Shown: positions 46,529 to 64,000 of the stretch, one piece after another
Layout of the letters: each line of letters starts with the position of its first letter
Position numbering within the stretch: the first letter of the stretch is position 1
NCBI GenBank assembly: GCA_903921325.1
Contig: CAIXPL010000006.1
Location: 1 to 64,000, forward strand
DNA length: 64,000 nucleotides
Source of the DNA: an uncultured Pseudomonadota bacterium
GTDB taxonomy: Bacteria; Pseudomonadota; Gammaproteobacteria; Burkholderiales; SG8-39
Direction: 5' to 3'
Notes under the pieces: generated by a model
Databases searched by the model: none
The model's input: only the letters and a program-made list of their open reading frames with translations
Told to the model about the DNA's origin: nothing
Program-made: the position numbers and the translations under genes

Positions 46529-46918
46529 ATGAATCTGTTCAGCTACGGGTCCCTGATGTTCGATCCGGTATTGATGCAAGTGGTGGGGCGCCTCGCGCGC
46601 TCGCAGCCAGGACACCTGCTTGGCTGGTCGCGCCATGCAATCCAGGGAGAAATCTATCCGGCCGCCATCCCTGTCCCCGGCGCCAGCATCGAGGGTCGGG
46701 TATGGCTCGATCTGACTGTCGAGGAAGTGTCCGCACTCGATCGTTTCGAGTCTGACGAGTACCGCCGCGTGAACGTCCTCGTCGAGGTGGACGGTGCGCG
46801 GGTGCCCTGCTTTGTCTACGAGTGGCGCGATCGCTCGCGCATGCTTGCGCAGGACTGGTCGCCTGAGGCGTTTCGCGAGACCGGGTTGGCGGGTTTTGTA
46901 CAACAGCGGTCAGGTTGA
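46529..46918 (+). CDS. Gamma-glutamylcyclotransferase-like (AIG2/BtrG fold) protein
   Basis: A 129-residue protein of the GGCT-like fold. The N-terminal NLFSYGSLMFDP is the substrate-binding YGSL motif. A glutamate in LDRFESDEYRRV matches the family catalytic position. Members convert gamma-glutamyl amines to 5-oxoproline plus amine, but many bacterial AIG2-like proteins are uncharacterised. Start ATG 46529 was chosen because the fold begins there. A 5-oxoproline product would be of interest beside the HyuA/HyuB (oxoprolinase-family) genes downstream. Confidence 0.8.
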   Translation: MNLFSYGSLMFDPVLMQVVGRLARSQPGHLLGWSRHAIQGEIYPAAIPVPGASIEGRVWLDLTVEEVSALDRFESDEYRRVNVLVEVDGARVPCFVYEWRDRSRMLAQDWSPEAFRETGLAGFVQQRSG

Positions 46919-47074
46919 ATTGCGGCGCGGGCGCACCAGAAAGGAGCGTATGAGGGGTTTTTGCGTAGTCACGGTGCGGCTGTGCTGGCCGAGACGGTCG
47001 GCGGGCGCTTGGGTTGGCACAGCGCGGGTCGGTCTAATCCACCCATTTGGCACAGGGTTTGCAAGACCCTCACC

Positions 47075-48682
47075 ATGAAAAAAATCCCTGTCCCGTCTGC
47101 AGCACGCGCGAGCACCGCTACACGCCACCCCCTCAATTGTCCGACTGCCCTCGGTCACTTGAGCGGCGTGCGACTGGGCGTTGACGCGCACTCAACCACC
47201 GGCGTTCTGCGGCAAGGCCGACGCGTCGATATCGCGATCGCAAACGGTGTGATTCAATCAATCACCGCGGCGGCCACCCGGCGCGCCGGTGACCCGATCG
47301 CGGCACCCAGCCAATTGGACGGACGCGATCTCATCGTGTTCCCCGGCTTTGTGAATGCCCATGTGCATTCCAATGAAATGTTCGAGCAGGGCGCCTACGA
47401 TCGTGCAGCGCTCGAGGAGTGGCTGGTGCTGAGCTACCCGCCCTTGCTGGGCGAACAGCCTTCGCCGCGCCTCGATTACCTGCGCACGATGATGATGGCG
47501 ATGCAGTCGCTGCGCTCAGGGGTCTGTGCACTGCACGATGATTTCTTGAATCCGGCGGGCGATCCGGAACGCCTCGCCGCAGTATTTCAGGCCTATGAGG
47601 ACATTGGCATCCGGGCCGCGGTGGCCTGCACACTGGGTGATCGGCCCTACCTCGACGGCTTGCCGGAAGGGCGCACGTTGTGTCCACCGGATTTGGCTGC
47701 TCAACTTGACCGCATGCCCATTCGGCCGCTCAAGCAGCAGGTGCGATTTTTTGAAAATGAATATGCCCGCATGCGTGGCACCCGCGGCCCGCGCCTGAGT
47801 CTCACTCTGGGGCCGCGCGGACCGCAGCGCTGTACTGAAGGGCTCATGCGTACGGTGGGCGAATTGGCCCGTGCGGGCAACATCCAGATCAATATGCATG
47901 TGCTTGAGAGCCGCACCCAGTGGCAGAGCGCGCAGCAGCAGTATGCGCAGAGCTATGTTGAAGTGCTTGAACGTAACGGCCTGCTGTGTCCGCAACTGAC
48001 CATGAATCACGCGATCTGGCTCACTGCCAGCGACATCGCTCGCATGGGGGCGAACGGTGTGTCGACCACCCACAATCCGATGTCCAATTTCAAGCTATCG
48101 AGCGGCGTTTCGCCGGTGCGGCAGTTGCTCGCAGCCGGCGTGAATGTGGCGCTTGGCTCCGATGGCCCGGCCACCGGGGATAGCAGCGATTTCATGCAGA
48201 CTATCCGCTTTGCAGCGCTCATTCACAAGCTCGAACCGCAGCGTGGTTTGGCGCCGCCCTCGGCCGCGGCGATTGTGCAGATGGCGAGCCTGGCCGGTGC
48301 CCGATCGATGGGCACTGGGGGCTCGTGTGGCGAATTGCGCCCAGGGGCACAGGCTGATCTGACCTTGCTCGACGCGCGTAATCCAGGCCTGGTGCCGCTC
48401 AATCATGCCGCGCGCCAGCTTGCCTACAGCGTGGGTTCTGACGCCGTACATACTGTGCTGGTGGCCGGTGACCCGGTGTTTCAGGCCGGTCGGTTCACGC
48501 GTATTGACGAGGTTGCAGTGTCAGCGGAAATTCGCGAGGAAGCCGAGCGCTTTCGGCGCATGGTGCTCGCGGCTCGCCATGGCGCACAGCCCGCAATGCT
48601 TGCCTTCATTCGCAAGGTGGTGGCCCACGCGCACCGGCAGGCGACAGTGACGGGTACGGTGAATCGGCCCCTTGCCGGTTGA
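47075..48682 (+). CDS. Amidohydrolase of the TRZ/ATZ deaminase family
   Basis: A 535-residue metal-dependent hydrolase. Metal ligands appear as H-x-H in VNAHVHSNE, then MHVLES, MNHAIWL and the aspartate in LGSDGPATGDSSDF. STTHNPMSNFKLSSGVSP is a typical substrate-side segment. The family deaminates or dechlorinates purines, pterins, triazines and related rings. It is about 90 residues longer than MtaD, with extra sequence at both ends. ATG 47075 is my choice, because the fold starts soon after. It heads a region rich in cyclic-amide enzymes. Confidence 0.82.
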   Translation: MKKIPVPSAARASTATRHPLNCPTALGHLSGVRLGVDAHSTTGVLRQGRRVDIAIANGVIQSITAAATRRAGDPIAAPSQLDGRDLIVFPGFVNAHVHSNEMFEQGAYDRAALEEWLVLSYPPLLGEQPSPRLDYLRTMMMAMQSLRSGVCALHDDFLNPAGDPERLAAVFQAYEDIGIRAAVACTLGDRPYLDGLPEGRTLCPPDLAAQLDRMPIRPLKQQVRFFENEYARMRGTRGPRLSLTLGPRGPQRCTEGLMRTVGELARAGNIQINMHVLESRTQWQSAQQQYAQSYVEVLERNGLLCPQLTMNHAIWLTASDIARMGANGVSTTHNPMSNFKLSSGVSPVRQLLAAGVNVALGSDGPATGDSSDFMQTIRFAALIHKLEPQRGLAPPSAAAIVQMASLAGARSMGTGGSCGELRPGAQADLTLLDARNPGLVPLNHAARQLAYSVGSDAVHTVLVAGDPVFQAGRFTRIDEVAVSAEIREEAERFRRMVLAARHGAQPAMLAFIRKVVAHAHRQATVTGTVNRPLAG

Positions 48683-48799
48683 ATTCAGCGACTGCTGAAT
48701 GTCCGGATAACCCTGCTGTAGGGGTGCGGCCACTACGGAGCAAGAGTAGTACCGTTCGATCAAGCAGAGCCGCACTACTTGATCGAGCGCGCGGATGCC

Positions 48800-50113
48800 T
48801 TAAATGAGGTGCCCTCCTACCGCATCGCCACCGACCAGCACGCAGCGCTCGAGGGCGCCGCCAGCGACCAGGTCCGCTGCATCCTCGGCCTTGGTGATGA
48901 GCAGGTCGGCCCGCGCTCCAACCTTCAGCCCATGCTCGGCATCGATGCGCAGCAGTCTGGCCGGGTTGCCACAGGCCATGTCGAATGCACGGCCCAGATC
49001 TTTTGAGCCCAGGTGGGCGGCGAGCACGGTCCAGCGCGCGATTTCCAGCATGTCACCGGATCCGGTCGGCACGAACGGGTCGCGAATATTGTCTGACGCG
49101 CAGGCCACGGTGACACCGGCATGGGCGAGTTCATTGACCCGTGTGAGGCCGCGCGGCGGCAGGCGATCGGCGTGACGGCCTTGCAGGAACAAATTGGCTG
49201 CGGGCAGCGTGATCACGCCAATGCCGGCATGGGCCAGACGATCGATGATCCGGTTCGCCTCATCGGGGGCAAGCGCCGAGAGCACCGAGCTGTGACTGGC
49301 CACGACCTTGCCCTGCATACCCAGGGCCAGGGTCCGATCAGCCAGCGCATCGAAATGCACCGCGTTCACATCCAGATGCTCATCCATGTGTACGTCGATC
49401 GGCCGGCCAAAGCGCTGTGAGGCATCGAACAGCATGTCGAGAAAGGCATCAACATCATGCGCCCGGGTCGGCGTGCCGCCGACGACATCGGCTCCCATGG
49501 CAAGGGCGTCATCGAGCCAACCCTTGCCCTTTGGGTTATTGATCGCACCACTGGTGATGAAAGCCACCACCTGCAGGCGTATGCGATCCTGCCAGCGTGC
49601 GCGCAACTCGATCAACGCTTCGGCGTTGCGCAGTCCGCACTCCGGATCGATATTGGCATGGGAGCGGATGGCCACGGTGCCGCGCGCCGAGCAGGCACGC
49701 AAAGTGCGCTCGGCGTGCGCGATGACGTCCTCGCGGGTAAGCCGGGTGGCATAGTCGGCAAAGGCCGCGATAGCGCCGTCCAGAGTGCCCTGTGGATTGG
49801 GCACTTCGCGCAAGGTGTGTGACTTGTCCAGGTGCTGGTGCGCGTCAACCAGGCCCGGCACCACCAGGCGGTCAGCCAGATCGATGGTGATCAATTCGGT
49901 GCCCCTTCGCTGTGCCGACGCGGCTGGCGATCCTGCACGGGATGGGACTTCGCGATCGAATGGAATTCCTGAGTCAGGTGGCATGCCACCGGGGATCGGC
50001 TCACCCGGCGCGAGCAAGGCCGCGATGTAGCCTCGCTCGTCGATCAGAATGTCACGCCGCTCGATAGGCGCGTCGCCACTCGCCTGTATTCTGCCGCCGC
50101 GTAGCAATTTCAT
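48800..50113 (-). CDS. Cytosine-deaminase-like amidohydrolase
   Basis: The 437-residue protein resembles the CodA/cytosine-deaminase branch of the amidohydrolases. Visible ligands are VDAHQHLDKSHT (H-x-H), HMDEHLD, VASHSSVLSAL and the catalytic aspartate in ASDNIRDPFVPTGSGDML. The last motif, with DNIRDPF and GSGDM, is distinctive for cytosine and isoguanine deaminase-like enzymes, some of which act on creatinine. There is an Asp/Pro/Gly-rich insertion at about residues 40-70 that is unusual. It is divergent from the VOC-hyuA-hyuB-liv operon and may share its control region. Confidence 0.82.
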   Translation of the reverse strand: MKLLRGGRIQASGDAPIERRDILIDERGYIAALLAPGEPIPGGMPPDSGIPFDREVPSRAGSPAASAQRRGTELITIDLADRLVVPGLVDAHQHLDKSHTLREVPNPQGTLDGAIAAFADYATRLTREDVIAHAERTLRACSARGTVAIRSHANIDPECGLRNAEALIELRARWQDRIRLQVVAFITSGAINNPKGKGWLDDALAMGADVVGGTPTRAHDVDAFLDMLFDASQRFGRPIDVHMDEHLDVNAVHFDALADRTLALGMQGKVVASHSSVLSALAPDEANRIIDRLAHAGIGVITLPAANLFLQGRHADRLPPRGLTRVNELAHAGVTVACASDNIRDPFVPTGSGDMLEIARWTVLAAHLGSKDLGRAFDMACGNPARLLRIDAEHGLKVGARADLLITKAEDAADLVAGGALERCVLVGGDAVGGHLI

Positions 50114-50357
50114 CGTGGAGTCCTTTCACCAGATAAATGGGTCGATTGGGATCAGCAGCAATCATGCCTGCATCGCTCAGACGGTGCTGATCGTAGTCGC
50201 CCGAACAATGGCGCCACGCCTATCGAGGTGCGATAAACGTCCGGAAGGCGTCGGGCGCGGCGTGCGCGGGTGGCGCAATGAGTACAGAATTCGGTTCGGG
50301 CCGATGATGCAGCATTCGACCCAGGCCGATCAATTCAACGCGGAGGAGTCATTGCTG

Positions 50358-51182
50358 ATGAACAATTGCCGAGCGGGCGCGCGTATCAGTCATGTGGCCC
50401 TGGTCTGCAGCGACCTTGACCGCTCGGCCGAATTCTACGAAAGCGTGTTCAACCTCACCCGCGTCGGGCGCGAAGATCTTGAACACGGATCGGGCCTCTA
50501 CCTGTCCGATGGCCTCTTTAACCTCGCCCTGCTGCGCTACAAGGGTGAACAGATGTCCGGGCTGGCCGATGCGGCGCGATTTACCGGCACCCATCATTTC
50601 GGGCTGGTGGTGGATGATCTGGCCGCAGCCGAGACGCGCATCAAGGCGGCCGGCGGCAGCTTTTTCTTTCAGCTCGGCGAGGGCGAGGACAAGGCCAATT
50701 TCGAGCGCAAGTTCAAAGACCCCGATGGCATCATTTTTGACATCTCGCGACATGGCTGGCTGTGCGCCGATGCGGCTTCGCGCGGTGCCCGTCTGCGCCA
50801 CGTCGCCCTGGTGGTGCGTGACCTGGACGCCGCCGCCCGGTTTTATCAGCAGGTGTTTGGCCTTGTCTTTGTCGCTCGTGACGATCAGCCCTTTGGCTCG
50901 GCCGTCTATCTGTCCGATGGCACCGTGAACCTTGCACTGCTGCGCTATGCGGGCAGCGCGGTCTCGGGTCTGAACAATGCGGCCCAGTTCGTGGGCACCC
51001 ACCATTTTGGCTTTGTGGTGGACGATTTGCGCGACTGCGAAGCGCGCATCACCGCCGCCGGTGGCCAGTTTTTCTTTCAACTGGGCGATGGTGAAGACAA
51101 GCAGAATTTTGAGCGCAAGTTCAAAGATCCCGATGGCGTCATTTTTGATATCTCGCACAAGGGATGGCAGTTGGCGCCCTAG
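50358..51182 (+). CDS. Tandem-duplicated VOC domain protein
   Basis: The 274-residue protein consists of two consecutive VOC domains (about residues 8-135 and 145-272) that are strikingly alike. Both contain HVALV near the start, LYLSDG or VYLSDG, NLALLRY, GTHHFG and FERKFKDPDG. This indicates a recent internal duplication. Histidines in HVALV and GTHHFG and the glutamate in FERK could bind metal. ATG 50358 has GGAGGAG upstream; ATG 50304 is an in-frame alternative. It is the first gene of the hyuA-hyuB-liv operon, 45 bases before hyuA. Reaction unknown; an isomerase or epimerase for the ring substrate is possible. Confidence 0.82.
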   Translation: MNNCRAGARISHVALVCSDLDRSAEFYESVFNLTRVGREDLEHGSGLYLSDGLFNLALLRYKGEQMSGLADAARFTGTHHFGLVVDDLAAAETRIKAAGGSFFFQLGEGEDKANFERKFKDPDGIIFDISRHGWLCADAASRGARLRHVALVVRDLDAAARFYQQVFGLVFVARDDQPFGSAVYLSDGTVNLALLRYAGSAVSGLNNAAQFVGTHHFGFVVDDLRDCEARITAAGGQFFFQLGDGEDKQNFERKFKDPDGVIFDISHKGWQLAP

Positions 51183-51227
51183 GCTGCGTTCGGTACCATC
51201 GCAACACATAACAAGGATGAGACAGCT

Positions 51228-53336
51228 GTGCCAGTCATGCGTATTGCCGCCGATGTCGGCGGGACGTTCACCGATTCCGCGCTTTTTGATGAATCCCTCG
51301 GAACGATCCGGCTTGGCAAATCGCTCAGTACGCCACAGCGACTGGTGCAGGGTATCGATGACGCGGTGGCGCGTGCCGGCAGCCGGTTTGCCGATGCCAA
51401 CCTGTTCTTGCATGGCACGACGGTCGCGATCAACACGCTGCTCGAGCGTACGGGCGCGCGCACCGCACTGGTCACCACGCGCGGTTTTCGCGATATTTAT
51501 GAAATCGGCCGCATCAACCGGCCGGAGGCCTACAACCTGTTCTTTCGCAAACACCGGCCGCTGATTGACCGCGCGCAGCGCTTCGAGATTGATGAACGCT
51601 TGCTTGCCTCAGGCGAGGTACGCACCGCCTTGAGCGAAGCGGAACTGGAGCGTGTCGCATCTCTGGTCGAGGCGGCCAAGGTTGAGGCACTCGCCATTCT
51701 GTTTCTGCACTCGTGGAGCAATCCGGTGCATGAGATCAGGGCGCGAGACTACTTCAAACGACGCTTTCCAGGTCTGTACATCACCGCCTCGCACGAGCTG
51801 TCGCAGGAATACCGCGAATTCGAACGCACCTCGACCGTGGCGGCCAACGCCTACGTCGGGCCGCGGGTCGATCGCTACCTGGGCGAGGTGGTTGACCACC
51901 TGCAGCGCGAGCGCTTCGGTGGCAGCTTCCTCATCGTGCAGTCCACCGGCGGCCTCTACGATGTCGAGCGGGCGCGGCGCGAGAGCATCCGCATGCTTGA
52001 ATCCGGCCCCGCTGCGGGGGTGATCGGCACCCGCGAGCTGTGCCGCAGCCTGGGCATGGCCAATGCCATCGCGTTTGATATGGGTGGCACGACCGCCAAG
52101 GCCGGGGTGATCCTCGCTGGCAGCGAACTGATGACATCCAGTTCCATGATCGGCGGCTACGCGGAAGGCTTGCCGGTGCAAATTCCGATGATCGACATCC
52201 AGGAGGTGGGCACTGGCGGGGGCAGCATCGCGCGCCTGGGACCGGGTGGGTCGCTACGCGTCGGCCCGCAAAGCGCGGGGGCGAGTCCAGGGCCGGTCTG
52301 CTACAGCCTCGGCGGTACCGAGCCGACGGTGACCGATGCCAATCTGCTGCTGGGGCGATTGTCCGAGAGCCGCTTTCTGGGCGGTGACATGGCCCTTGAT
52401 CTCGCACTTGCACGTTCGGCCATCAAGGAGCGTTTGGCCGATCCGTTGGGTCTCTCGATTGAGCAGGCGGCCAGTGGCGTGATCCGGATTGCGGCAGCGA
52501 GCATGTCCAATGTGGTGAAGCGGGTGACCACTGAACGCGGCCTCGATGCGCGCGACTTTCCGATGGTGGCCTTCGGCGGGGCAGGTCCGCTGCACGCGGT
52601 GCTGGTGGCGCGCGAACTGCAGATCAGTCAGGTGATTATTCCCAATGCCCCTGGTCATTTCTCAGCCTACGGCATGCTGGTGGCCGACCTGCGCCGTGAT
52701 CAGGTGAAGACCTTGTTCATGCCTCTGGCCGCGCTTGATTTTGATCGGCTGGAAGCGGTCTTCCGGTCGATGGAGGACGAGGCCCTGGTGGATGTGTGCG
52801 CGGCATCGGCGAGCGTCGGGCCGATCGAGCGCCGTCGCGCACTCGATATGCGCTATGTGGGGCAGGAGCATGCAGTCACGGTCGATGTTGCCTTGAGTGC
52901 ATTTGAGCACCGCGATCAGGCCGCCATCAAGCAGGCATTCGATGCGGTGCATGAGCTGCGCTATGGCTACTGCTCGGCCACCGAGCAGGCCGAGATCGTG
53001 AGCCTGCGTTCATCGGTGGCCGGTGCAATGCCAAAACCGGCCCCGCGCGAATTGGCGCCTGCAAGTGCGCTGTCTGCGGGCGCCCGGCCTGCGAATGCGG
53101 CGGTGGCCGTCGAACAGATGTCGCGGGCGGTGTATTTCGATGACGCGTCGGGGTGGGTCGATACCCCGGTGTTTGCGCGCGATCCGCTGTGCGCCGGGCA
53201 GCGCATTGACGGGCCGGCGTTGATTGAAGAGTACGCGTCGACGACGGTGGTGTTTCCGGGTGATCGGGTCGTCGTGGACGGGCAGGGCAATCTGGTGATC
53301 GACATCAGGCTCGATGACACCGCGGAGGCACGATGA
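51228..53336 (+). CDS. hyuA: Hydantoinase/oxoprolinase subunit A (ATP-binding)
   Basis: HyuA-family proteins couple ATP hydrolysis to opening of cyclic imides such as N-methylhydantoin or 5-oxoproline. The 702-residue protein has the N-terminal phosphate-binding AADVGGTFTDSALFD. It then has LHGTTVAINTLLERTGA, GGTTAKAGVILAG, GTGGGSIARLGPGGSLRVGP and FGGAGPLHAVLVARELQI. GTG 51228 has AAGGA ten bases upstream; ATG 51237 is an alternative. It overlaps hyuB by four bases. It is 702 residues and unfused, unlike the single-chain eukaryotic oxoprolinase. Substrate is not certain from sequence. Confidence 0.92.
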   Translation: MPVMRIAADVGGTFTDSALFDESLGTIRLGKSLSTPQRLVQGIDDAVARAGSRFADANLFLHGTTVAINTLLERTGARTALVTTRGFRDIYEIGRINRPEAYNLFFRKHRPLIDRAQRFEIDERLLASGEVRTALSEAELERVASLVEAAKVEALAILFLHSWSNPVHEIRARDYFKRRFPGLYITASHELSQEYREFERTSTVAANAYVGPRVDRYLGEVVDHLQRERFGGSFLIVQSTGGLYDVERARRESIRMLESGPAAGVIGTRELCRSLGMANAIAFDMGGTTAKAGVILAGSELMTSSSMIGGYAEGLPVQIPMIDIQEVGTGGGSIARLGPGGSLRVGPQSAGASPGPVCYSLGGTEPTVTDANLLLGRLSESRFLGGDMALDLALARSAIKERLADPLGLSIEQAASGVIRIAAASMSNVVKRVTTERGLDARDFPMVAFGGAGPLHAVLVARELQISQVIIPNAPGHFSAYGMLVADLRRDQVKTLFMPLAALDFDRLEAVFRSMEDEALVDVCAASASVGPIERRRALDMRYVGQEHAVTVDVALSAFEHRDQAAIKQAFDAVHELRYGYCSATEQAEIVSLRSSVAGAMPKPAPRELAPASALSAGARPANAAVAVEQMSRAVYFDDASGWVDTPVFARDPLCAGQRIDGPALIEEYASTTVVFPGDRVVVDGQGNLVIDIRLDDTAEAR

Positions 53337-55273
53337 GTCAGTCACAATCGACAGCGCCTGTGCATTACGCGCGCAAATCCGATCCGGTGGTCACCGAGAT
53401 CATTCGCAATGGCATGTTTGCGGCGACCGAGGAGATGAAATCCAATCTCATGCGCACCGCCTACAACATGATCATCTACGAGGCGCTCGATTTCACTGTC
53501 GGCTTGTTCGATCGTGACGGTAATACCGTGTCGATTGGCATCGGACTGCCGATGTTCATTCGCGGCATGAGCAACACGGTCAAACGCATGATTGCTCACT
53601 TCGGCCACGATGGTATCGATCCGGGCGATGTGCTGCTTACAAACGATGCCTATATCACTGGCAGCCATCTGAATCACATGACCTTTGTAGTGCCGGTATT
53701 CGATGGCACGCGCATTGTCGGATTCTCTGGCTGCATGGCCCACTGGATGGATGTCGGGGGCACCCTCGGCGGCATGACCCGTGACATCTATTCCGAAGGC
53801 TTGCAGATGCCGATCGTCAAGGCCTGGCGGGCCGGGGTTGAAAACGACGATGTGTTTCGCATCATCGAGATGAACGTGCGCATCCCTGAGCGTGCCATGG
53901 GTGATTTGCGGGCGCAGATCGCCGCTGTCAACACAGGCGAACGGCGCTTCCGCGAGATGATCGGCAAGTACGGCTGTGATGCGGTACTGGGTGCCATCGA
54001 AACCATCTTCGACCAGAGCGAGGCCGCGGCGCGCGAATCCATACGCGCCATTCCCGATGGCACCTATCACGCTGAATCGTTCATGGACGACGATGGTGTC
54101 GATCTGGGGGTACGGGTGCCGATCCGGGTGAAGGTCATCGTGTCAGGCGATGAGATGACCATCGATTTGAGCGATGTCAGCGATCAGGTACGCGGCTTTT
54201 ACAATTCGGGCGAGGCGGCCGGCATCGCCTGCGCCCAGGTGGCGTTCAAATGTCTGACCGCAGCCCTTGAACTGCCGATCAACGATGGCTGTTTTCGGCC
54301 GCTCACAGTCATACTGCCTGAGGGCAAGGTCGTCAATGCGCGCCGGCCTGCGCCGATGCGCTGGTGGATGACCTTTCCGATGACCGTGGTCGATTCGGTG
54401 TTCAAGGCACTGGCCCCGGCCATTCCGACCCAGGTCATTGCCGGCCACCATGCCGATCTGGTGATTGCCATGATTCACGGGCGTCACCCGCAAGATGGCA
54501 AGCTGTACTTGTATCTCGGTGGTTTGATCGGCGGTGGTTGGGGCGCCAAGCACAACGAGGACGGCATGTGTGTCACCGTCGCGATCAACGATGGCGACAC
54601 GCATAACGGCCCCTCCGAGCAGGTCGAGGCGCGCTATCCGGTGGTGATCGAACGCTACTCGCTGCGCGAGGATTCGGGTGGCCCCGGCCGTCAGCGCGGC
54701 GGCTTGGGTGCCGAACAGGTGGTGCGGGTGCTCGCCGACATGATGTTCGACAGCCAGATCGAGCGCGTCGAGTGCCGTCCCTGGGGGCTCCTGGGCGGGC
54801 TCTCGGCACTTGGCAACGAAGTAGCGCTCACGCGCAAGGGTGAGCAGGAGGTGGTCTATGCCTCCGGAAAACTGTTCTCGCAGGTCTTGCGCGCGGGCGA
54901 TGTGTGGACGCTGCGCTCGGGCGGTGGCGGTGGTTTTGGCAGCCCGCTCGATCGCAAACGCGCTGATGTCGAACGCGACGTGGCCAATGGCTATGTGTCG
55001 ATACAGTCAGCCGCCGAGCACTACGGCGTGGTGATCGATGCGGTGAGCCTGCGCGCCGACGAGGCGCGCACGGCGCGCCTGCGTGCGCAGATGAAAGCTG
55101 CAGGCTTGCCCGTCGATCAACCACTGACCAGCCGCGCTCGAACCGCCAGTGGCGAGCGCAAAACCCGTGTACGGGCGACCCGTGCCGGTTTGCGATTGCT
55201 GCCACCTGAGGCACAATCCATGAAAGATGAAGCGCATGAGGCCGGACTCATGGTCATGCGCTGTTGCAGTTAA
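53333..55273 (+). CDS. hyuB: Hydantoinase/oxoprolinase subunit B
   Basis: HyuB is the catalytic partner of HyuA. The 646-residue protein shows the family marks DPVVTEIIRNGMFAATEEM, GDVLLTNDAYITGSHLNHM, GMTRDIYSEGLQMP and the C-terminal LREDSGGPGRQRGGLGAE and GGGGGFGSPLDR. Its start overlaps the hyuA stop. The extreme C-terminus (about the last 60 residues) is basic and variable and is not needed for the fold. An ABC importer gene follows 18 bases later, so the imported ligand is probably the substrate or a precursor. Confidence 0.92.
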   Translation: MSQSQSTAPVHYARKSDPVVTEIIRNGMFAATEEMKSNLMRTAYNMIIYEALDFTVGLFDRDGNTVSIGIGLPMFIRGMSNTVKRMIAHFGHDGIDPGDVLLTNDAYITGSHLNHMTFVVPVFDGTRIVGFSGCMAHWMDVGGTLGGMTRDIYSEGLQMPIVKAWRAGVENDDVFRIIEMNVRIPERAMGDLRAQIAAVNTGERRFREMIGKYGCDAVLGAIETIFDQSEAAARESIRAIPDGTYHAESFMDDDGVDLGVRVPIRVKVIVSGDEMTIDLSDVSDQVRGFYNSGEAAGIACAQVAFKCLTAALELPINDGCFRPLTVILPEGKVVNARRPAPMRWWMTFPMTVVDSVFKALAPAIPTQVIAGHHADLVIAMIHGRHPQDGKLYLYLGGLIGGGWGAKHNEDGMCVTVAINDGDTHNGPSEQVEARYPVVIERYSLREDSGGPGRQRGGLGAEQVVRVLADMMFDSQIERVECRPWGLLGGLSALGNEVALTRKGEQEVVYASGKLFSQVLRAGDVWTLRSGGGGGFGSPLDRKRADVERDVANGYVSIQSAAEHYGVVIDAVSLRADEARTARLRAQMKAAGLPVDQPLTSRARTASGERKTRVRATRAGLRLLPPEAQSMKDEAHEAGLMVMRCCS

Positions 55274-55291
55274 ATTAGGAAGGAGACAGAC

Positions 55292-56557: not shown

Positions 56558-57436
56558 GTGTCTGACGCAACGCTCCTCGTCGTTGCCTCGACGCTGAGCA
56601 CCGGGCTGATTCTCGGGGCGATCTTCGCCCTGGTGGCAGCCGGTGTCACCATCGTCTACGGCTGCGTGTGGTTGCCCAATGCGAGCAACGGCCAGTTCTT
56701 TCTGCTCGCCGCTCTCGCAGCCTGGAGTCTGACCGGCGCGGGGCTGGGGAGTGCTGCCGCCATCATCATGGTGCTGCTCCTGGGGCTCGTCCTCTCGCTT
56801 GGCCTGGAATGGCTGCTGGTGCGCCGGCTCTACGATGTGCCCAACCGTAATGTGGCCTGCTTCGTATTGACTCTGGGGCTCACGCAGATCATGGCGGGGA
56901 TTTTCTCGATGACCTGGGGACGCTGGAGCGATCAGTACACGCTGCCACCACTCGTGTCGGGTATTACGATGATCGGTCCGTTCCCGATGACCAACAATCG
57001 CATTCTGGTGTTGCTGATCGCATTGGTGGTGCTGGCGGCCTCGTTTGCATTGCTGCGTTATCACCGCTACGGCCGCGCCTTGCGCGCGGTATTTCAGAAT
57101 CGCGAGGCGGCGGCCCTGCGCGGGGTGGATGTGCGCGCGGTCTATCGCATGTCGTTTCTGCTCGGCTCATCGATCATTTTTCTCGGTGGCCTTCTTTTTG
57201 CGCTGGCCTACAGTTTTGATCTGACCGTGGCCTGGACGATGTCGGTCACTGCCTTTGCCATCATGATCGTGGGCGGCCCGGGGTCGGTTCTCGGCGCCTT
57301 GGTGGTGGGCATGGTGTTTGGATTTACCCAGGCGATCGTGAGCATTTTTGCCAGTCCGACCGCAGCGACTTTTTCCTATCTGCTGGCGATGCTTGCCATG
57401 CTGTTATTCAAGCCCACCGGGCTATTTCTGCGATGA
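56558..57436 (+). CDS. livH: Liv-type ABC transporter permease LivH
   Basis: A 292-residue inner-membrane permease of the LivH family with about eight hydrophobic segments. LILGAIFALVAAGVTIVYG at the N-terminus, NREAAALRGVDVRAVY (the cytoplasmic loop that touches the ATPases) and the SVLGALVVGMVFGFTQAI end are typical. It starts with GTG 56558 immediately after the binding-protein stop, and overlaps livM by four bases. Confidence 0.93.
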   Translation: MSDATLLVVASTLSTGLILGAIFALVAAGVTIVYGCVWLPNASNGQFFLLAALAAWSLTGAGLGSAAAIIMVLLLGLVLSLGLEWLLVRRLYDVPNRNVACFVLTLGLTQIMAGIFSMTWGRWSDQYTLPPLVSGITMIGPFPMTNNRILVLLIALVVLAASFALLRYHRYGRALRAVFQNREAAALRGVDVRAVYRMSFLLGSSIIFLGGLLFALAYSFDLTVAWTMSVTAFAIMIVGGPGSVLGALVVGMVFGFTQAIVSIFASPTAATFSYLLAMLAMLLFKPTGLFLR

Positions 57437-58395
57437 GCGCGCGGCGCTGGGCTGTGGCGCTTGGGCTGCTTGCACTGGCCCTGCCATTCGTGTTGGAGGG
57501 CAATCGCTTTCTTGCCTTTGTCTACAGCATCGTGATGATTCATCTGATCTGGGCCAACGGGATGAATCTGCTCTATGGCTATGTGGGGCTGATGCCGCTC
57601 ATGTTCGCAGGCGTCGCAGGCGTCGCGGCCTACGCCATGATTTACCTGACGCGCAGCCATGAGTGGTCATTCTGGCTGGCCGCCCCGATGGCATCACTGG
57701 GCGCCTCACTGTTCGGAGTCTTGCTGGGTTTGCCCTCGCTGCGACTGACGGGCTTTTATTTCACGCTGTGTTCGCTGGTGATCCAGACGGTGATCACCCT
57801 GGCGTTTGTGTTCTTCCCGACCTTTACCAATGGTGACACCGGCATCAATCAGATCGCGCCGCCGCAAGCGCCGTGGGGTGGTGCGTTGAGCGGCGTTTGG
57901 ATGGATGAGACGCTCGCCATCGTTGCCGTGCTTTCGGTGCTGCTCTGTGGCTGGATCGTCTCGACCCGGCTGGGCAAGCGCTTCATGGCCATTCGTGAAG
58001 ATGATGTGCTGGCCGAGGTGCTAGGCATCGATGTCGTGCGCGATCGCATCATCGCGTTCTTCATTGTCTCGATGTTTGCTTCGATCGGTGGGTGCCTCTT
58101 TGCGGTCACCATCGGCTTCATCTCGCCGCGCTCCTTTGATGTGCTGACATCGCTCAATATCTGGCTGTTTGTCGCCTTTGGCGGTCGCGGCACCTTGATC
58201 GGTCCGATCATCGGTACGATCGTCCTTGCACCGATCCCCTATCTGTTGCAGGAATTGCAGGGGTTCAAGGATGTGCTCTCAGGGGTGCTGATCATCGTGG
58301 TGACCTTGCTGATGCCCGGTGGCGTTTGGGGTGAACTGCTGCGCTGGCGTGATCGGCGTCGGGCACGGCGAGCACTTGCCGTGGGGCAAACATGA
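57433..58395 (+). CDS. livM: Liv-type ABC transporter permease LivM
   Basis: A 320-residue permease, the second membrane subunit of the importer, with about nine hydrophobic stretches. WANGMNLLYGYVGLMPLMFA near the N-terminus and the coupling loop RFMAIREDDVLAEVLGIDVV are diagnostic of LivM. AFGGRGTLIGPIIGTIVLA lies near the C-terminus. It overlaps the genes on both sides by four bases. It forms a heteromeric channel with LivH. Confidence 0.93.
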   Translation: MSARRWAVALGLLALALPFVLEGNRFLAFVYSIVMIHLIWANGMNLLYGYVGLMPLMFAGVAGVAAYAMIYLTRSHEWSFWLAAPMASLGASLFGVLLGLPSLRLTGFYFTLCSLVIQTVITLAFVFFPTFTNGDTGINQIAPPQAPWGGALSGVWMDETLAIVAVLSVLLCGWIVSTRLGKRFMAIREDDVLAEVLGIDVVRDRIIAFFIVSMFASIGGCLFAVTIGFISPRSFDVLTSLNIWLFVAFGGRGTLIGPIIGTIVLAPIPYLLQELQGFKDVLSGVLIIVVTLLMPGGVWGELLRWRDRRRARRALAVGQT

Positions 58396-59132
58396 GCCTG
58401 CTACAGGTCAACGGTCTGGTGCGCCGCTTCGGCGGCGTGGTGGCCTTGCGTGATGTCGAACTCACTATGGAGGCGGGTGAGACACTCGGCATGATTGGCC
58501 CCAATGGATCAGGCAAGACCACCTTCGTGAACATCGTGAGCGGGCATCTGGCAAGCGATGCGGGCACCATGCTGTTTGATGGCGAATCGATCACCGGCGC
58601 CTCACCGCATCAATTGGCGGCACGCGGGCTGACCCGTACCTATCAGGCGGTGCGGGTGTTCTCCGGTCTGAGCGTGGCGCGCAATATCGAGACCGCCAGC
58701 CTGCTGCGGCGTGACGCGCGGGCAGGGGCAGGGGCGGGGGCAGGCAGGGCGGATGGGGCGACGGTCGATGAACTGGCCGAATGGCTGCGGCTTGATCGCC
58801 TGATGGGCAAGCCCGCCGGAAGTCTGACGCTCTTTGAGCAACGCCGCCTTGAATTGCTGATGCGCCTCGCGCAGCGCCCGCGACTGATCATGCTCGATGA
58901 ACCGGTGGGGGGCCTCGCGCTCACCGAGGTGCGCGAGATGATCGAATTGCTTGCGCAGTTGAAAGCGCGCTGCTCGCTCTTTGTGATCGAGCACACCATG
59001 CGGGTGATTCGCGAATTGGCCGATCGGGTGGTGGTGCTGATGGCTGGTGAGAAGATCGCCGATGGCGCACCCGACGAAGTACTGCGTGACAAGCGCGTGG
59101 TTGAACAGTACCTGGGGACGGTCCATGCTTGA
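58392..59132 (+). CDS. livG: Liv-type ABC transporter ATPase LivG with altered signature motif
   Basis: A 246-residue ATPase with Walker A GPNGSGKTTF, Walker B LIMLDEP and the switch histidine VIEHTMR. A Gly/Ala-rich insertion (GAGAGAGRADGA) lies before the signature. Oddity: where LivG proteins have L-S-Y-G-x-Q or similar, this one reads LTLFEQRRLE, so the signature glycine is replaced by phenylalanine. That glycine normally contacts ATP across the dimer. The surrounding RRLE is intact, so this is not a frameshift. It may still work with LivF, whose signature is normal. It overlaps livM by four and livF by eight bases. Confidence 0.9.
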   Translation: MSLLQVNGLVRRFGGVVALRDVELTMEAGETLGMIGPNGSGKTTFVNIVSGHLASDAGTMLFDGESITGASPHQLAARGLTRTYQAVRVFSGLSVARNIETASLLRRDARAGAGAGAGRADGATVDELAEWLRLDRLMGKPAGSLTLFEQRRLELLMRLAQRPRLIMLDEPVGGLALTEVREMIELLAQLKARCSLFVIEHTMRVIRELADRVVVLMAGEKIADGAPDEVLRDKRVVEQYLGTVHA

Positions 59133-59829
59133 GATTGATCAGGTGTCGGTCCGCTATGGTCCGTTCCTTGCCCTCGATGGAGTAAGCCTCAACGTCAATG
59201 AGGGCGAAATTGTTGGTGTGATCGGTCCCAATGGAGCCGGCAAGAGTTCGCTTGCGCGGGCCATTGTGGGACTTGAACCAACCGCAGGAGGCAGCATCCG
59301 GTTTGGCGGGCAACTTATGCAATCTGGCGTGGTGCATGAGCGAATCACGCAAGGCCTGTCGCTGGTGCCCGAAGGGCGCGGTCTGTTCGCGCAAATGTCG
59401 GTCGAGGACAACCTGCTCATGGGCGCCTACACGATGCGTGCGAGTGCGGCCAGAGAGCAGGCGCTGCGCGAGGCCTTTGAGTTATTTCCTGTGCTCGATG
59501 AGCGACGCGATCAGCGTGCCGGTACGCTCTCAGGCGGGCAGCAGCAGATGCTGGCGGTGGCAGTGGGGCTGATGACCCACCCGCGGCTGTGCGTCTTTGA
59601 TGAGCCTTCGCTCGGCCTTGCGCCGATTGTGATTGAGCAGATCGGCAACACCCTCAAAGCCATGAAGCGCCGCGGGCTCACCGTGCTGTTGATCGAACAG
59701 AATGCCACGCTGGCGATGTCGGTCGCCGAGCGGATTTATGTCATGGCCGCCGGTTCCATTCGTCATCAGGGGACGCCCGAGGCGCTCATGCGCAATCCCG
59801 AGGTGCTGGAGACCTTTCTGAGTGCTTGA
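59125..59829 (+). CDS. livF: Liv-type ABC transporter ATPase LivF
   Basis: A 234-residue ATPase with Walker A GPNGAGKSSLARAI, Q loop region LVPEGRGLF, the intact signature LSGGQQQMLAVAVGL, Walker B LCVFDEPSLGLAP and the H-loop position occupied by glutamine in LLIEQNATL, as is normal for LivF. Start ATG 59125 overlaps the end of livG. The upstream frame to 59047 is within livG. It is the last gene of the VOC-hyuA-hyuB-liv operon. LivF probably provides the canonical half of the ATP sites with LivG. Confidence 0.95.
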   Translation: MLEIDQVSVRYGPFLALDGVSLNVNEGEIVGVIGPNGAGKSSLARAIVGLEPTAGGSIRFGGQLMQSGVVHERITQGLSLVPEGRGLFAQMSVEDNLLMGAYTMRASAAREQALREAFELFPVLDERRDQRAGTLSGGQQQMLAVAVGLMTHPRLCVFDEPSLGLAPIVIEQIGNTLKAMKRRGLTVLLIEQNATLAMSVAERIYVMAAGSIRHQGTPEALMRNPEVLETFLSA

Positions 59830-60003
59830 GTCAGATCACTCATCTGCTGCTGCCTGCATGCCTGAATGCCTGATGTCGTGTGCTGGTCAATCTCCGATAT
59901 TTGGTGCCTCTGTTACCGGGCTTCTGCAGAATTCAATTGCAGGCCTCATCAGATTGTTCCTTCTTCCGTCCATCGCTGCTGGCCATTGCACTCTGACCCA
60001 TCC

Positions 60004-60894
60004 ATGATTCCAGTTATCGATTCCCATCACCACATCTGGCGCCAGGCCGATCTCGCCTGGCTGCAGGGTCCGATGCAGCCACGGATCTTCGGTCCCTACG
60101 AGAGCCTGCAGCGCGACTATCCGATGGCTGAGTACCTGCAGGACGTTGCAGGCAGCGGTGTCGTAGGTTCTGTGTACGTGCAGGCCAATTGGCCGTCTGA
60201 CCGGGCGCTGGAAGAGGTGCAATGGGTGCAATCAGTGGCCGCAGCGACCGGCTGGCCCCACGCCATTGTGGGCTATGCCGATATGCTGAGTGCGTCGATC
60301 GATTCGGTGCTCGATCAGCAGTTGAAGGCGAGTGACCGACTGCGCGGCATTCGCATGCAATTGCATTGGCACACCAATGCGCAATATCGCTTCGCTTCAG
60401 CACCCGATCTCACCGCACATCCCGATCTGCGGCGCAATGTCCGTGCGCTGGCCAGTCGCGGCTTGAGTTTTGATTTGCAGGTGTTCGATGCGCAGATGGC
60501 GGGGGCGGCGCAACTGGCGCACGATAACCCCGATGTCACTTTTGTGCTGCAGCATGCCGGCATGCTGGAGGATCTGTCCGCGGCAGGCATCAAGCGCTGG
60601 CGCGACGGGATGATTCAGTTGGCAGCGCAACCCAATGTCGTTGCCAAATTGTCAGCCTTTGGTACTTTCATTCATCGCAACGAACCGGCGCAGGTGGCCT
60701 TTCTGGTGCACGAAACCGTGCGCCTGTTCGGACCCGACCGCTGCCTGTTTGGCAGCAACTTCCCGATCGAAAAGCTGTGGACAAGTTACGCTGAGCTGGT
60801 GAGTGCCCATCGCGCGGCAATCGCCGATCTCTCCTTGCCCGCGCAACGCGCCGTGTTGCACGATACGGCGCGGCGCGTGTATCGAATGGCTTGA
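60004..60894 (+). CDS. TIM-barrel metal-dependent amidohydrolase (amidohydrolase-2 family)
   Basis: A 296-residue hydrolase of the Amidohydro_2 family, related to lactonases and decarboxylases. Near the N-terminus DSHHHIWR supplies the H-x-H metal ligands and DLAWLQG follows. A histidine occurs in LQHAGML, and the C-terminal aspartate motif is close to CLFGSNFPIEKLW. The family includes 4-sulfomuconolactone and fucono-lactone hydrolases. The frame is open upstream to 59866, but the fold begins at ATG 60004. A ring-opening or lactone step is plausible, but the substrate is unknown. Confidence 0.83.
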   Translation: MIPVIDSHHHIWRQADLAWLQGPMQPRIFGPYESLQRDYPMAEYLQDVAGSGVVGSVYVQANWPSDRALEEVQWVQSVAAATGWPHAIVGYADMLSASIDSVLDQQLKASDRLRGIRMQLHWHTNAQYRFASAPDLTAHPDLRRNVRALASRGLSFDLQVFDAQMAGAAQLAHDNPDVTFVLQHAGMLEDLSAAGIKRWRDGMIQLAAQPNVVAKLSAFGTFIHRNEPAQVAFLVHETVRLFGPDRCLFGSNFPIEKLWTSYAELVSAHRAAIADLSLPAQRAVLHDTARRVYRMA

Positions 60895-61029
60895 GCGCAG
60901 ACGACGCCTATTCAGCGCCCCGCGGCTATTGCGCGGGTGCGCTGAACGCCCTCAGCATCCAGGGGTTGCACTGGCCGCCCCAGGGCGATCGACGGGCGTC
61001 GCCGCCGCAGGCGACACTTGCGGTGCAGG

Positions 61030-62331
61030 TCAACCGGTTTGGCGGGCTGCGCGTCCGGCAATCAGGTCCATTTCGGCGGCGTGGGCGAGCGCGGCATCCT
61101 CATCGAGCAATTCACCTTCCCACTTGGCAACCACGGCGGCGGAGAGCGAATTGCCGACCGCATTGGTGGCCGAGCGGCCCATGTCGAGGAAGGTATCGAC
61201 ACCCAGGATCAGCAGCAGACCCGCCTCAGGGATATTGAATTGATTGAGGGTGGCGGCAATCACCACCAGCGACGCACGTGGCACGCCAGCCATCCCCTTG
61301 GAGCTGAGCATCAGGATGGCAAGCATCGTGATTTCGGTGGCAAGGGACAGATGGATGTCATAGGCCTGCGCCACAAAGAGTGTGGCGAACGTGCAGTACA
61401 TCATCGAGCCATCAAGGTTGAACGAATAGCCCAGCGGCAGCACAAAGCTGCCGATTTTGCGATTCACTCCGAAGCGCTCCAGCGCGTCGAGCAGTTTTGG
61501 ATAGGCCGCTTCGGAGCTTGCCGTGGCAAATGAGAGCAGGAACGGTTCTTTGATCAAGCCGAGCAGGCGAAAAACCCGCTTGCCGAGGAAGAACCCGCCA
61601 GCTGCAATCAGAATCACCCACAGCAGCCCGAGTGCGACGTAGAACTCGAGCATGAAGAGAGCAAACTTGGCCAGGATCGCCAGCCCGTTGGTTGCCACGG
61701 TCGAGGCCATGGCCGAGAACACCGCGAAGGGCGCGAGCTTCATCACGTAGCCGGTCATCTTGAGCATGATGCTCGCCAGCCCGTCGATGGCTGACACCAG
61801 AGTACGGGCACGCTCGCCCAGGGCGGCTGCCGCAGTGCCCACCAGAAGAGAAAACACGACGATCTGCAGAATCTCGTTGGTGGCCATCGCCTCGAAGAAC
61901 GAGCGTGGCACCATGTGCTGAATGAAATCACGTATGGTGAAGTGATCCGCTGAGAGCCCCGTTGCGGTGCCGACCGGCGGCAGCGGCAGGTTGATATTGA
62001 CCCCTGGTTCCATCAGGTTGGCGAGGACGAGTCCAAGGGTGAGCGAGACGATCGATGCCGTGATGAACCAGGCCATCGCCTTCAGGAACACCCGACCCAC
62101 CGCACCACTGTCGCCCATGTGCGCAATGCCGATGACCAGTGTCGAGAAGACCAGCGGGCCGATCAACATCTTGATCAGGCGCAGGAAGATGTCGGAGATG
62201 ATCGACACATAGCCCGCGATCTTCACCGCGGAGGCTTTGTCCGGAAAGGACGTGAAGATCATGTACCCGGCGATGATCCCCAGTACCAGGCCAATCAGGA
62301 TCCAAACCGTCTGCGAGGTCTTCTTAGTCAT
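61030..62331 (-). CDS. dctA: Dicarboxylate:cation symporter (DctA/GltP type)
   Basis: A 433-residue member of the DAACS family, which takes up C4-dicarboxylates, glutamate or aspartate with protons or sodium. It has about eight membrane segments. The serine-rich re-entrant hairpin region appears as FATASSEAAYPKLLDAL, followed by SFVLPLGYSFNLDGSMMY and the transport-core LMLSSKGMAGVPRASLVVIA. LLILGVDTFLDMGRSATNAVGNS completes the core and holds the acidic substrate site. The start is ATG 62331. The frame upstream is not family-like. Either C4-dicarboxylate or an amino acid is possible. The gene is oriented opposite to its neighbours. Confidence 0.9.
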   Translation of the reverse strand: MTKKTSQTVWILIGLVLGIIAGYMIFTSFPDKASAVKIAGYVSIISDIFLRLIKMLIGPLVFSTLVIGIAHMGDSGAVGRVFLKAMAWFITASIVSLTLGLVLANLMEPGVNINLPLPPVGTATGLSADHFTIRDFIQHMVPRSFFEAMATNEILQIVVFSLLVGTAAAALGERARTLVSAIDGLASIMLKMTGYVMKLAPFAVFSAMASTVATNGLAILAKFALFMLEFYVALGLLWVILIAAGGFFLGKRVFRLLGLIKEPFLLSFATASSEAAYPKLLDALERFGVNRKIGSFVLPLGYSFNLDGSMMYCTFATLFVAQAYDIHLSLATEITMLAILMLSSKGMAGVPRASLVVIAATLNQFNIPEAGLLLILGVDTFLDMGRSATNAVGNSLSAAVVAKWEGELLDEDAALAHAAEMDLIAGRAARQTG

Positions 62332-62476
62332 GTGAACCGCCCTGTGGGTTGATGCAGTTTTGGCGCTGCGCTCTTGGTCATACTGCCACGGCTTCCTGCT
62401 CACCGCGATACTACCTTGCCTTTGGCGATAGGATATCGCCTGAGGCCGGACTCAACCGGCCCGCTCCGGAGTTGCC

Positions 62477-63205
62477 ATGGACGCCACCCATTTCGAGGAT
62501 CACTGTTGGCGCGATCTGATACCCGCCGATGTGATCGAATTGTATTCACACTACGCGCGTGACACCTTTGTCGGGCCGTCGGCAGCTTTGCTGGCGATCG
62601 ATCTCTATGAACTGGCCTACCAGGGCGGCGCGCATCCGGTTGCCGAAGTGAGCAAGCGTTACCCCAGCTCCTGTGGCGAACATGCCTGGGCGGCCATACC
62701 GCCAACCGTGCGGCTGTTTGCCGCTGCGCGCGCAGCCGGCCTGCCGGTGTTCTATACCACCAGCGATACCCGGCCGATGAGTAGTCCGGGCGCAGTGCAG
62801 GCGACCCGCCGCCGTGGTGTTCCAACCGATCCTGCGCTCTATCAGATACGCGCCGAATTCGCACCGCAGCCCGGTGATGTTGTGCTCACCAAGATGCGGG
62901 CCAGCGCGTTTTTTGGCACCCCGCTCATTGCTCACCTGACCCAGCTTGGGGTGCGCACCCTGATCCTGTGTGGCGAGAGCACGTCGGGCTGTGTGCGTGC
63001 CTCGGCGGTGGAGGCCTATTCCCATGGGTTTCATGTTGTGCTTGCCGAAGAGTGCTGTTTTGATCGCAGCCCGCTGTCGCACAAGGTGAATCTGTTTGAT
63101 ATGCACCATAAGTACGCCGATGTGATCGCCGTGGACGAGGTGATCGCGCATCTGAATAAGGCGGCATCGGCGCCAATACAAAGGTTAACCGGTGACCCAC
63201 GATGA
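62477..63205 (+). CDS. Isochorismatase-fold amidohydrolase (N-carbamoyl-amidase/maleamate-amidase-like)
   Basis: A 242-residue cysteine hydrolase. The catalytic triad is visible as Asp in LLAIDLYEL, Lys in VLTKMRASAFFG, and Cys in GESTSGCVRASAVEAYSHGF. The downstream DRSPLSHKVNLFDMHHKYADV matches the N-carbamoylsarcosine and maleamate amidase branch more than isochorismatase proper. Products would be an acid plus ammonia (and carbon dioxide from a carbamoyl group). Its stop overlaps the next gene (ATGA). The ATP-dependent HyuAB would make a carbamoyl acid from a hydantoin, a natural substrate for such an enzyme. Confidence 0.8.
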   Translation: MDATHFEDHCWRDLIPADVIELYSHYARDTFVGPSAALLAIDLYELAYQGGAHPVAEVSKRYPSSCGEHAWAAIPPTVRLFAAARAAGLPVFYTTSDTRPMSSPGAVQATRRRGVPTDPALYQIRAEFAPQPGDVVLTKMRASAFFGTPLIAHLTQLGVRTLILCGESTSGCVRASAVEAYSHGFHVVLAEECCFDRSPLSHKVNLFDMHHKYADVIAVDEVIAHLNKAASAPIQRLTGDPR

Positions 63206-64000
63206 AACCTGCTCCTTATGGTCCGTTTTCGTACTCTCCCATTCACCAGCGCGCGCCTCTGCATTGGCCGAACGGTGCGCGCCTGGCGCTGTGGGTGATT
63301 CCCAATATCGAGTTTTTTTCCCTGCAGGACACCATCCCCGCCGGTTCCGGCGGAGGTGGCACGCCAGCACCCGATGTACCGCTGTGGTCAGTGCGTGACT
63401 ACGGCAACCGCGTCGGCGTGTTTCGCCTTATGAAGGTGCTCGAACGTTATGGTGTACGCGGCACGGTGGCGCTCAATAGCAACCTGTGCGCCCAGCACCC
63501 CGAGATCATCGAAGAGGGTCAGCGACTGAACTGGGAGTGGATGGGGCATAACGAAACCAACACCCGACGCCTGAACGAAGTCGACGCGATCGAAGAGGCG
63601 CGCATCATTGCTGACTCGCTCACCACCATTGAGCGCGCAACCGGCACGCGACCGCGCGGCTGGCTCGGCAGCGGGCTGCAGGAGACCTGGAACACGCTCG
63701 ATCGGCTGGTCGATAACGGCTGCCAGTACGTGTGCGACTGGACCAATGACGATCAGCCCTATGTGATGACCCTCGAGGGCGGCCGCAGCATAGTGTCAGT
63801 GCCCTACAGCCATGACATCAATGACAAGCCGGCATTCGAGAAGCTGCATCGTACGGCCGATGAATTTCGCGACATGATCTGCCGGCAGTTTGATGTGCTC
63901 TATGACGAGGGTGGCGAGTCAGGCCGGGTGATGGCGATCTGCCTGCACCCGTATCTCACCGGTGTGCCACATCGCATTGGCGCGCTCGATGCGGCGCTCG
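63202..64000 (+). CDS. Polysaccharide-deacetylase-fold hydrolase, cut by window edge
   Basis: The frame starts ATG 63202, overlapping the preceding stop, and is open to 64000 (266 codons). Early residues include LHWPNGARLALWVIPNIEFF. GVRGTVALNSNLCAQHPEI, WMGHNETNTRRLNE and RPRGWLGSGLQETWNTLDRL follow. These match the PuuE-like branch of NodB-fold deacetylases, which includes metal-independent allantoinases. The N-terminus, the central GWLGSG and the CLHPYLTG near the edge agree. It probably opens a cyclic ureide or deacetylates a small amide. It is translationally coupled to the amidase. The C-terminus is outside the window. Confidence 0.85.
   Translation, partial: MKPAPYGPFSYSPIHQRAPLHWPNGARLALWVIPNIEFFSLQDTIPAGSGGGGTPAPDVPLWSVRDYGNRVGVFRLMKVLERYGVRGTVALNSNLCAQHPEIIEEGQRLNWEWMGHNETNTRRLNEVDAIEEARIIADSLTTIERATGTRPRGWLGSGLQETWNTLDRLVDNGCQYVCDWTNDDQPYVMTLEGGRSIVSVPYSHDINDKPAFEKLHRTADEFRDMICRQFDVLYDEGGESGRVMAICLHPYLTGVPHRIGALDAAL

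Follow-up and report, generated by a model that had tools for sequence, protein, structure and literature searches.

The 64,000-nucleotide stretch of DNA analysed here (the window), from an uncultured Pseudomonadota bacterium, comprises positions 1-64000 of contig C6 (94,752 bp) in a genome of 4.5 Mb and 38 contigs, and towards its end carries genes for a hydantoinase-like pair (HyuA and HyuB), a Liv-type importer, an isochorismatase-fold amidase (ISO) and several other hydrolases. This region is probably a mosaic in which three or more units meet: a Liv-HyuAB-Amidohydro_2 operon, whose HyuB belongs to a clade with an Asp-His-His-His metal site (the DHHH clade); a unit of ISO and a PuuE-like protein that forms part of a wider catabolic locus; and the unlinked GGACT, TRZ-type and CodA-like genes. 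The initial annotation had viewed the region as a possible complete route for creatinine, N-methylhydantoin or another cyclic amide. All of the gene classes that it named (deaminase-like, HyuAB, Liv, amidase-like and GGCT-like) are present as domain matches in the window, and its broad idea, that an importer works together with enzymes for some cyclic amide or imide, remains plausible; the specific three-enzyme route is not supported. This corrects a pathway call that was plausible but wrong, of the type that automatic annotation draws from co-located families.

The HyuAB pair and its metal site

In caprolactamase the metal ligands of CapB are Asp41, His99, Asp102 and His124 (the abstract of that paper has D101 for the Asp102 of its text), alanine substitution at the four ligands abolished activity, and His99, Asp102 and His124 were called fully conserved across related hydantoinases, oxoprolinases and carboxylases (PMC8453981). 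By alignment, the corresponding residues of the window HyuB are D53, H112, H115 and H137, a site unlike that of every solved relative checked, as CapB, N-methylhydantoinase and the carboxylases all have Asp/Glu-His-Asp-His. The equivalents of CapB Asp41, His99 and His124 are retained, whereas Asp102 is replaced by His115, and this replacement is clade-wide: Asp-His-His-His was found in 94 of 94 HyuB sequences at 59% identity or above (the window HyuB counted in), Asp-His-Asn-His (DHNH) in six at 37-41% identity, and the canonical Asp-His-Asp-His (DHDH) in ten at 26-38% identity. In an IQ-TREE phylogeny of 52 rows the 36 DHHH rows form a single clade with support of 100/100, the DHNH rows form a separate clade (99/92), and CapB and N-methylhydantoinase group with the canonical rows, the outer branching order being unsure on account of some long branches. 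The DHNH group represents a second HyuB clade with a changed metal site. All three types occur among the 11 HyuB paralogues of the genome itself (L150-L159), with three DHHH (window, C5, C13), four DHNH (C28, C1, C5, C2) and four DHDH (C26, C29, C37, C16) proteins.

HyuA keeps the ATP motifs ADVGGTFTD, FDMGGTTA and GASPGP (compare D11, D295 and GxxPGP of CapA), a likeness to both N-methylhydantoinase (7hk5, 9h03) and the caprolactamase CapAB (6yra). The AlphaFold2 model of HyuB (pLDDT 82, pTM 0.82) matches 9h03, 6yra, 5m45 and 5l9w; the best solved match of HyuB is N-methylhydantoinase, and the fold similarity to N-methylhydantoinase and caprolactamase reaches TM 0.78-0.79 at about 30-34% identity. 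Acetone and acetophenone carboxylases share the superfamily and fold of HyuB but are 21-23% identical and retain the His-x-x-Asp that is missing from the DHHH clade. The window proteins also differ from CapAB in falling under the CapA and CapB NCBIfam cut-offs (511 and 306 of 1000 bits), and from both CapAB and N-methylhydantoinase in their linkage to Liv and Amidohydro_2 genes. By its motifs and fold HyuAB would pass for an ATP-dependent hydantoinase, but its HyuB is without the metal site called conserved in hydantoinases.

These results define a large 'hydantoinase B' clade whose metal site is altered and for which no characterised member was found here; its metal and reaction are directly testable. 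A literature search covering few subscription papers found no report of a His substitution at the metal site, and because of that coverage the novelty of the clade is provisional. Members occur widely in Burkholderiales and Rhizobiales, where their transport partners are of the Liv or TctC type. It is conceivable, although we offer this only tentatively, that they constitute a distinct enzyme type in which the change from Asp to His alters the metal bound, or the ATP-dependent reaction catalysed, relative to the known hydantoinases, lactamases and carboxylases. A CobW-type metallochaperone was considered as a partner of the clade and discarded, as a CobW gene was seen in one plasmid locus (L162) and no CobW family is prominent among the recurrent neighbours.

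Genomic neighbourhoods

The presence of these gene classes in one region has to be viewed against their abundance. The genome holds, in addition to its HyuB paralogues, 10 isochorismatase-domain proteins and about 15 Amidohydro_3 matches over the cut-off, and by random placement alone about 0.5 isochorismatase genes would be expected to fall within 10 kb of a HyuB gene somewhere in the genome. Because each class is common and the chance expectation is of this size, their co-presence is weak evidence alone, and conserved gene order was tested.

Searched against 84,980 species genomes, HyuA yielded 79 loci, 77 of them at 55% HyuA identity or above; some lie on short contigs, so that the linkage counts are lower bounds. 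An orthologous Liv importer stands beside HyuAB in 19 of the 77 loci, nine of which also have the Amidohydro_2 gene, and in the best locus (L086) HyuAB and LivKHMG are 73-87% identical to the window proteins, LivF 70% and Amidohydro_2 68%. None of the 77 loci had a match covering half the protein for the CodA-like, GGACT, TRZ-type or VOC proteins, and none had a CodA-like, isochorismatase, GGACT or TRZ-type protein at 45% identity or above, ISO having two weak matches below that level. Further recurrent neighbours are TctC receptors, IclR regulators, fumarylacetoacetate hydrolase, and DHDPS-family and D-glutamate-cyclase-like proteins. A D-glutamate cyclase-family gene adjoins DHHH HyuAB in 13 loci (for example L088:9158-9931), which hints that the substrate of this subgroup resembles 5-oxoproline. 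In some loci a protein of 123-139 amino acids with no Pfam match is encoded directly 3' of DHHH HyuB (L162:7860-8231, L163:11841-12260). TctC-type (Bug) solute receptors are numerous beside HyuAB and other catabolic genes, both in the whole genome and in related loci.

A different partner emerges for ISO. Among 98 genomes of the family, 12 ISO orthologues (53-82% identity) were found, of which nine adjoin a PuuE-like gene and none adjoins HyuAB. In two congeners (G027 and G028) the gene order is Liv-Amidohydro_2-TctC-ISO-PuuE-ADH-RraA-MetE-like-CocE-like-TctC-NicC-like-MhpA-like, followed by genes for a Cox-type molybdenum hydroxylase and CoA-transferase; the Liv-Amidohydro_2-ISO-PuuE-RraA-MetE-NicC-MhpA proteins of the window locus are 71-87% identical there, and the catabolic genes of the congener locus are also present beyond the window end. 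Neither HyuAB nor CodA is found in this locus in either congener: an orthologue of the window HyuA is missing from both, the best HyuA (59-60% identical) being located elsewhere, and in each the CodA orthologue and the ISO locus occupy different contigs. In the congeners the flank that corresponds to the HyuAB side of the window carries a VOC gene and the gene of a thiamine diphosphate enzyme bearing a twin-arginine-like signal, which lie divergent from the Liv operon (L146:3271-5385, L148:8042-10105). Replacement of the congeners' thiamine diphosphate enzyme gene by HyuAB was considered, and a simple swap was not borne out, as an orthologue persists on contig C30 of the window genome.

The layout of the window (Table 1) agrees with this division. 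From the VOC gene to LivF the genes overlap or leave gaps of at most 45 bp (45 bp between VOC and HyuA), consistent with one operon. The CodA-like gene is divergent from this series, and an opposite-strand gene precedes ISO, an orientation that would place ISO in a separate transcription unit. The PuuE-like gene overlaps ISO by 4 bp and crosses the window end, stopping at L009:2089.

Table 1. Features at the end of the window, with the basis of each assignment
Feature	Position	Strand	Basis
GGACT / AIG2-like gamma-glutamyl cyclotransferase gene	46529..46918	+	PF06094, 69.4 bits
TRZ/ATZ-type amidohydrolase	47075..48682	+	PF01979, 147 bits; under all NCBIfam cut-offs
CodA-like amidohydrolase	48800..50113	-	alignment to E. 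coli CodA 1k6w
Two-VOC-domain protein, putatively opening the HyuAB-Liv transcription unit	about 50355..51182	+	PF00903, two stretches
HyuA (ATP-binding subunit)	51228..53336	+	PF05378, PF01968 (315 bits), PF19278
HyuB, DHHH clade	53333..55273	+	PF02538, 528 bits; metal residues; predicted fold
LivK-H-M-G-F importer	55292..59829	+	orthologous with importers of 19 HyuAB loci and two congeners
Amidohydro_2 protein (lactonase/decarboxylase superfamily)	60004..60894	+	PF04909, 129 bits
DctA-like dicarboxylate symporter, between the HyuAB-Liv unit and ISO	61030..62322	-	PF00375, 361 bits
ISO, isochorismatase-fold amidase	62477..63205	+	PF00857; nearest solved chains
PuuE/imidase-like polysaccharide-deacetylase-fold hydrolase	63202..64000, past the window at L009:1202-2089	+	TIGR03212, 99 bits

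Enzymes outside the HyuAB pair

The nearest solved chains to ISO are the N-carbamoylsarcosine amidases 26st (best) and 1nba and the maleamate-type amidases NicF/Ami (3ot4, 4l07). Its Lys139, Cys172 and Arg197 are common to both types, Arg197 corresponding to Arg202 of N-carbamoylsarcosine amidase, and Asp42, assigned by motif position, is in the expected place. With Asp42 so assigned, ISO has the Asp-Lys-Cys triad of these enzymes as well as the Arg from their DR motif, without clear preference for either type, and since the four residues are present its substrate probably bears a carboxylate. The initial annotation had made ISO a possible partner of HyuAB; its conserved neighbour is the PuuE-like hydrolase instead. 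This protein belongs to the polysaccharide-deacetylase fold family of the cyclic imidase HxnM and the allantoinase PuuE and like them has an amidase partner, but it scores far under the PuuE model (99 bits on TIGR03212, cut-off 424), with 3s6o and PuuE (3cl6) as its nearest solved structures. To judge from homology and from adjacency in the window and in most relatives, the two genes resemble an imidase and half-amidase pair, for which the PuuE-fold imidase HxnM and the amidase HxnN of fungal nicotinate breakdown offer a precedent (PMC9304392). The literature search, with the coverage given above, found nothing on isochorismatase-PuuE pairs.

The alignment to 1k6w shows the metal and catalytic residues of E. 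coli CodA (H61, H63, H214, E217, H246 and D313) conserved in the CodA-like protein. Gln156, the residue of cytosine deaminase that binds cytosine, is replaced by Thr186, and Asp314 by Asn, and the protein falls under every curated NCBIfam cut-off (272 of 403 bits). The absence of Gln156 speaks against the deamination step proposed for it.

Proposed roles and competing pathways

Under the mosaic reading, the Liv importer of the first unit (VOC-HyuA-HyuB-LivKHMGF-Amidohydro_2; 50355-60894, + strand) would take up a small acid or cyclic amide, HyuA would activate the imported compound with ATP, HyuB would act on the activated compound at its Asp-His-His-His site, the clade-specific change from Asp-His-Asp-His, and the Amidohydro_2 protein would probably hydrolyse or decarboxylate a product. 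The second unit (ISO-PuuE-like; 62477 onward, + strand) would open a wider catabolic locus, among whose other products are flavin monooxygenases, a molybdenum hydroxylase and an aldolase of the RraA type; here ring opening of a cyclic imide or ureide may be the task of the PuuE-like enzyme, and ISO may then release ammonia and an acid by hydrolysis of the carboxylate-bearing amide so formed. The GGACT, TRZ-type and CodA-like genes would be unrelated to either unit. Several points weigh against this reading. No substrate is readable from sequence, the change from Asp to His may leave the reaction the same, and the PuuE-like protein is closer to the allantoinase PuuE and 3s6o than to the imidase-like 3qbu. 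HyuAB, ISO and PuuE share a Liv-Amidohydro_2 neighbourhood in the window and therefore might yet serve a single pathway in this species, and the presence nearby of a molybdenum hydroxylase and of flavin monooxygenases leaves room for a pathway of the pyridine type instead.

The one-pathway alternative, in which HyuAB was added to an ancestral Liv-ISO-PuuE locus and a single Liv-fed route for a cyclic amide or imide employs HyuAB, the PuuE-like protein and ISO, is unlikely but deserves consideration, as both neighbourhoods have Liv-Amidohydro_2 and in the window HyuAB is directly upstream of LivK and ISO-PuuE 1.6 kb past Amidohydro_2; yet HyuAB and ISO-PuuE occur together in no other genome examined, and the opposite-strand DctA gene stands between them. 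Somewhat less likely again is that ISO is a maleamate-type amidase of a nic- or pic-like pathway for pyridine or another N-heteroaromatic compound, with the Amidohydro_2 protein as a PicC-like decarboxylase. The proximity of ISO to the NicF-type 3ot4 and to 4l07 would fit, as would the flavin monooxygenases and CoxSML that adjoin ISO and are kept in the congeners, and PicC, an amidohydrolase-family decarboxylase, adjoins PicE and PicF (PMC10142695). Nevertheless, no 2,5-dihydroxypyridine dioxygenase or maleate isomerase was recognised in the locus, and a PuuE-like partner is not reported for pic and nic clusters in the portions of the sources consulted.

The creatinine route now appears very improbable. 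It would have the CodA-like protein deaminate creatinine, HyuAB open N-methylhydantoin with ATP and ISO cleave N-carbamoylsarcosine, and its attraction is understandable: the three classes lie within 15 kb, the best solved matches of ISO and HyuB are N-carbamoylsarcosine amidase 26st and N-methylhydantoinase, and Corynebacterium glutamicum uses homologues of CodA, HyuB, CshA and SoxA (PMC8864220), enzyme superfamilies that are present here. It was rejected on synteny and active-site evidence. The window genes belong to different transcription units and have no conserved clustering, with CodA, HyuAB and ISO together in none of the relatives; the HyuB metal site is unlike that of N-methylhydantoinase, the CodA-like protein is without Gln156, and ISO is about equally close to maleamate amidases. 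Moreover, matches to two sarcosine oxidase models, TIGR01373 and TIGR01377 (soxB and monomeric soxA), were far under cut-off in the genome, other sarcosine enzymes not having been searched. Least probable of all is the 5-oxoproline salvage that the GGCT-like gene had suggested, with GGACT making 5-oxoproline and HyuAB opening it. A GGACT gene is present, and the 13 loci with a D-glutamate cyclase-like neighbour, all of more distant HyuAB, would suit such a substrate; however, GGACT is near HyuAB in none of the 77 other loci, two amidohydrolase genes and the VOC gene intervene in the window, and the Liv-linked locus of the window showed no D-glutamate cyclase-like gene. It was rejected for want of linkage.

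As to the host, the closest HyuAB relatives in both scan and tree point to Burkholderiales, and the tmRNA tag ANDERFALAA is in keeping with that order. Four of the loci compared (L011, L018, L031 and L086) come from public records of metagenome-assembled genomes titled Klebsiella pneumoniae or Bordetella parapertussis, titles that look misassigned.

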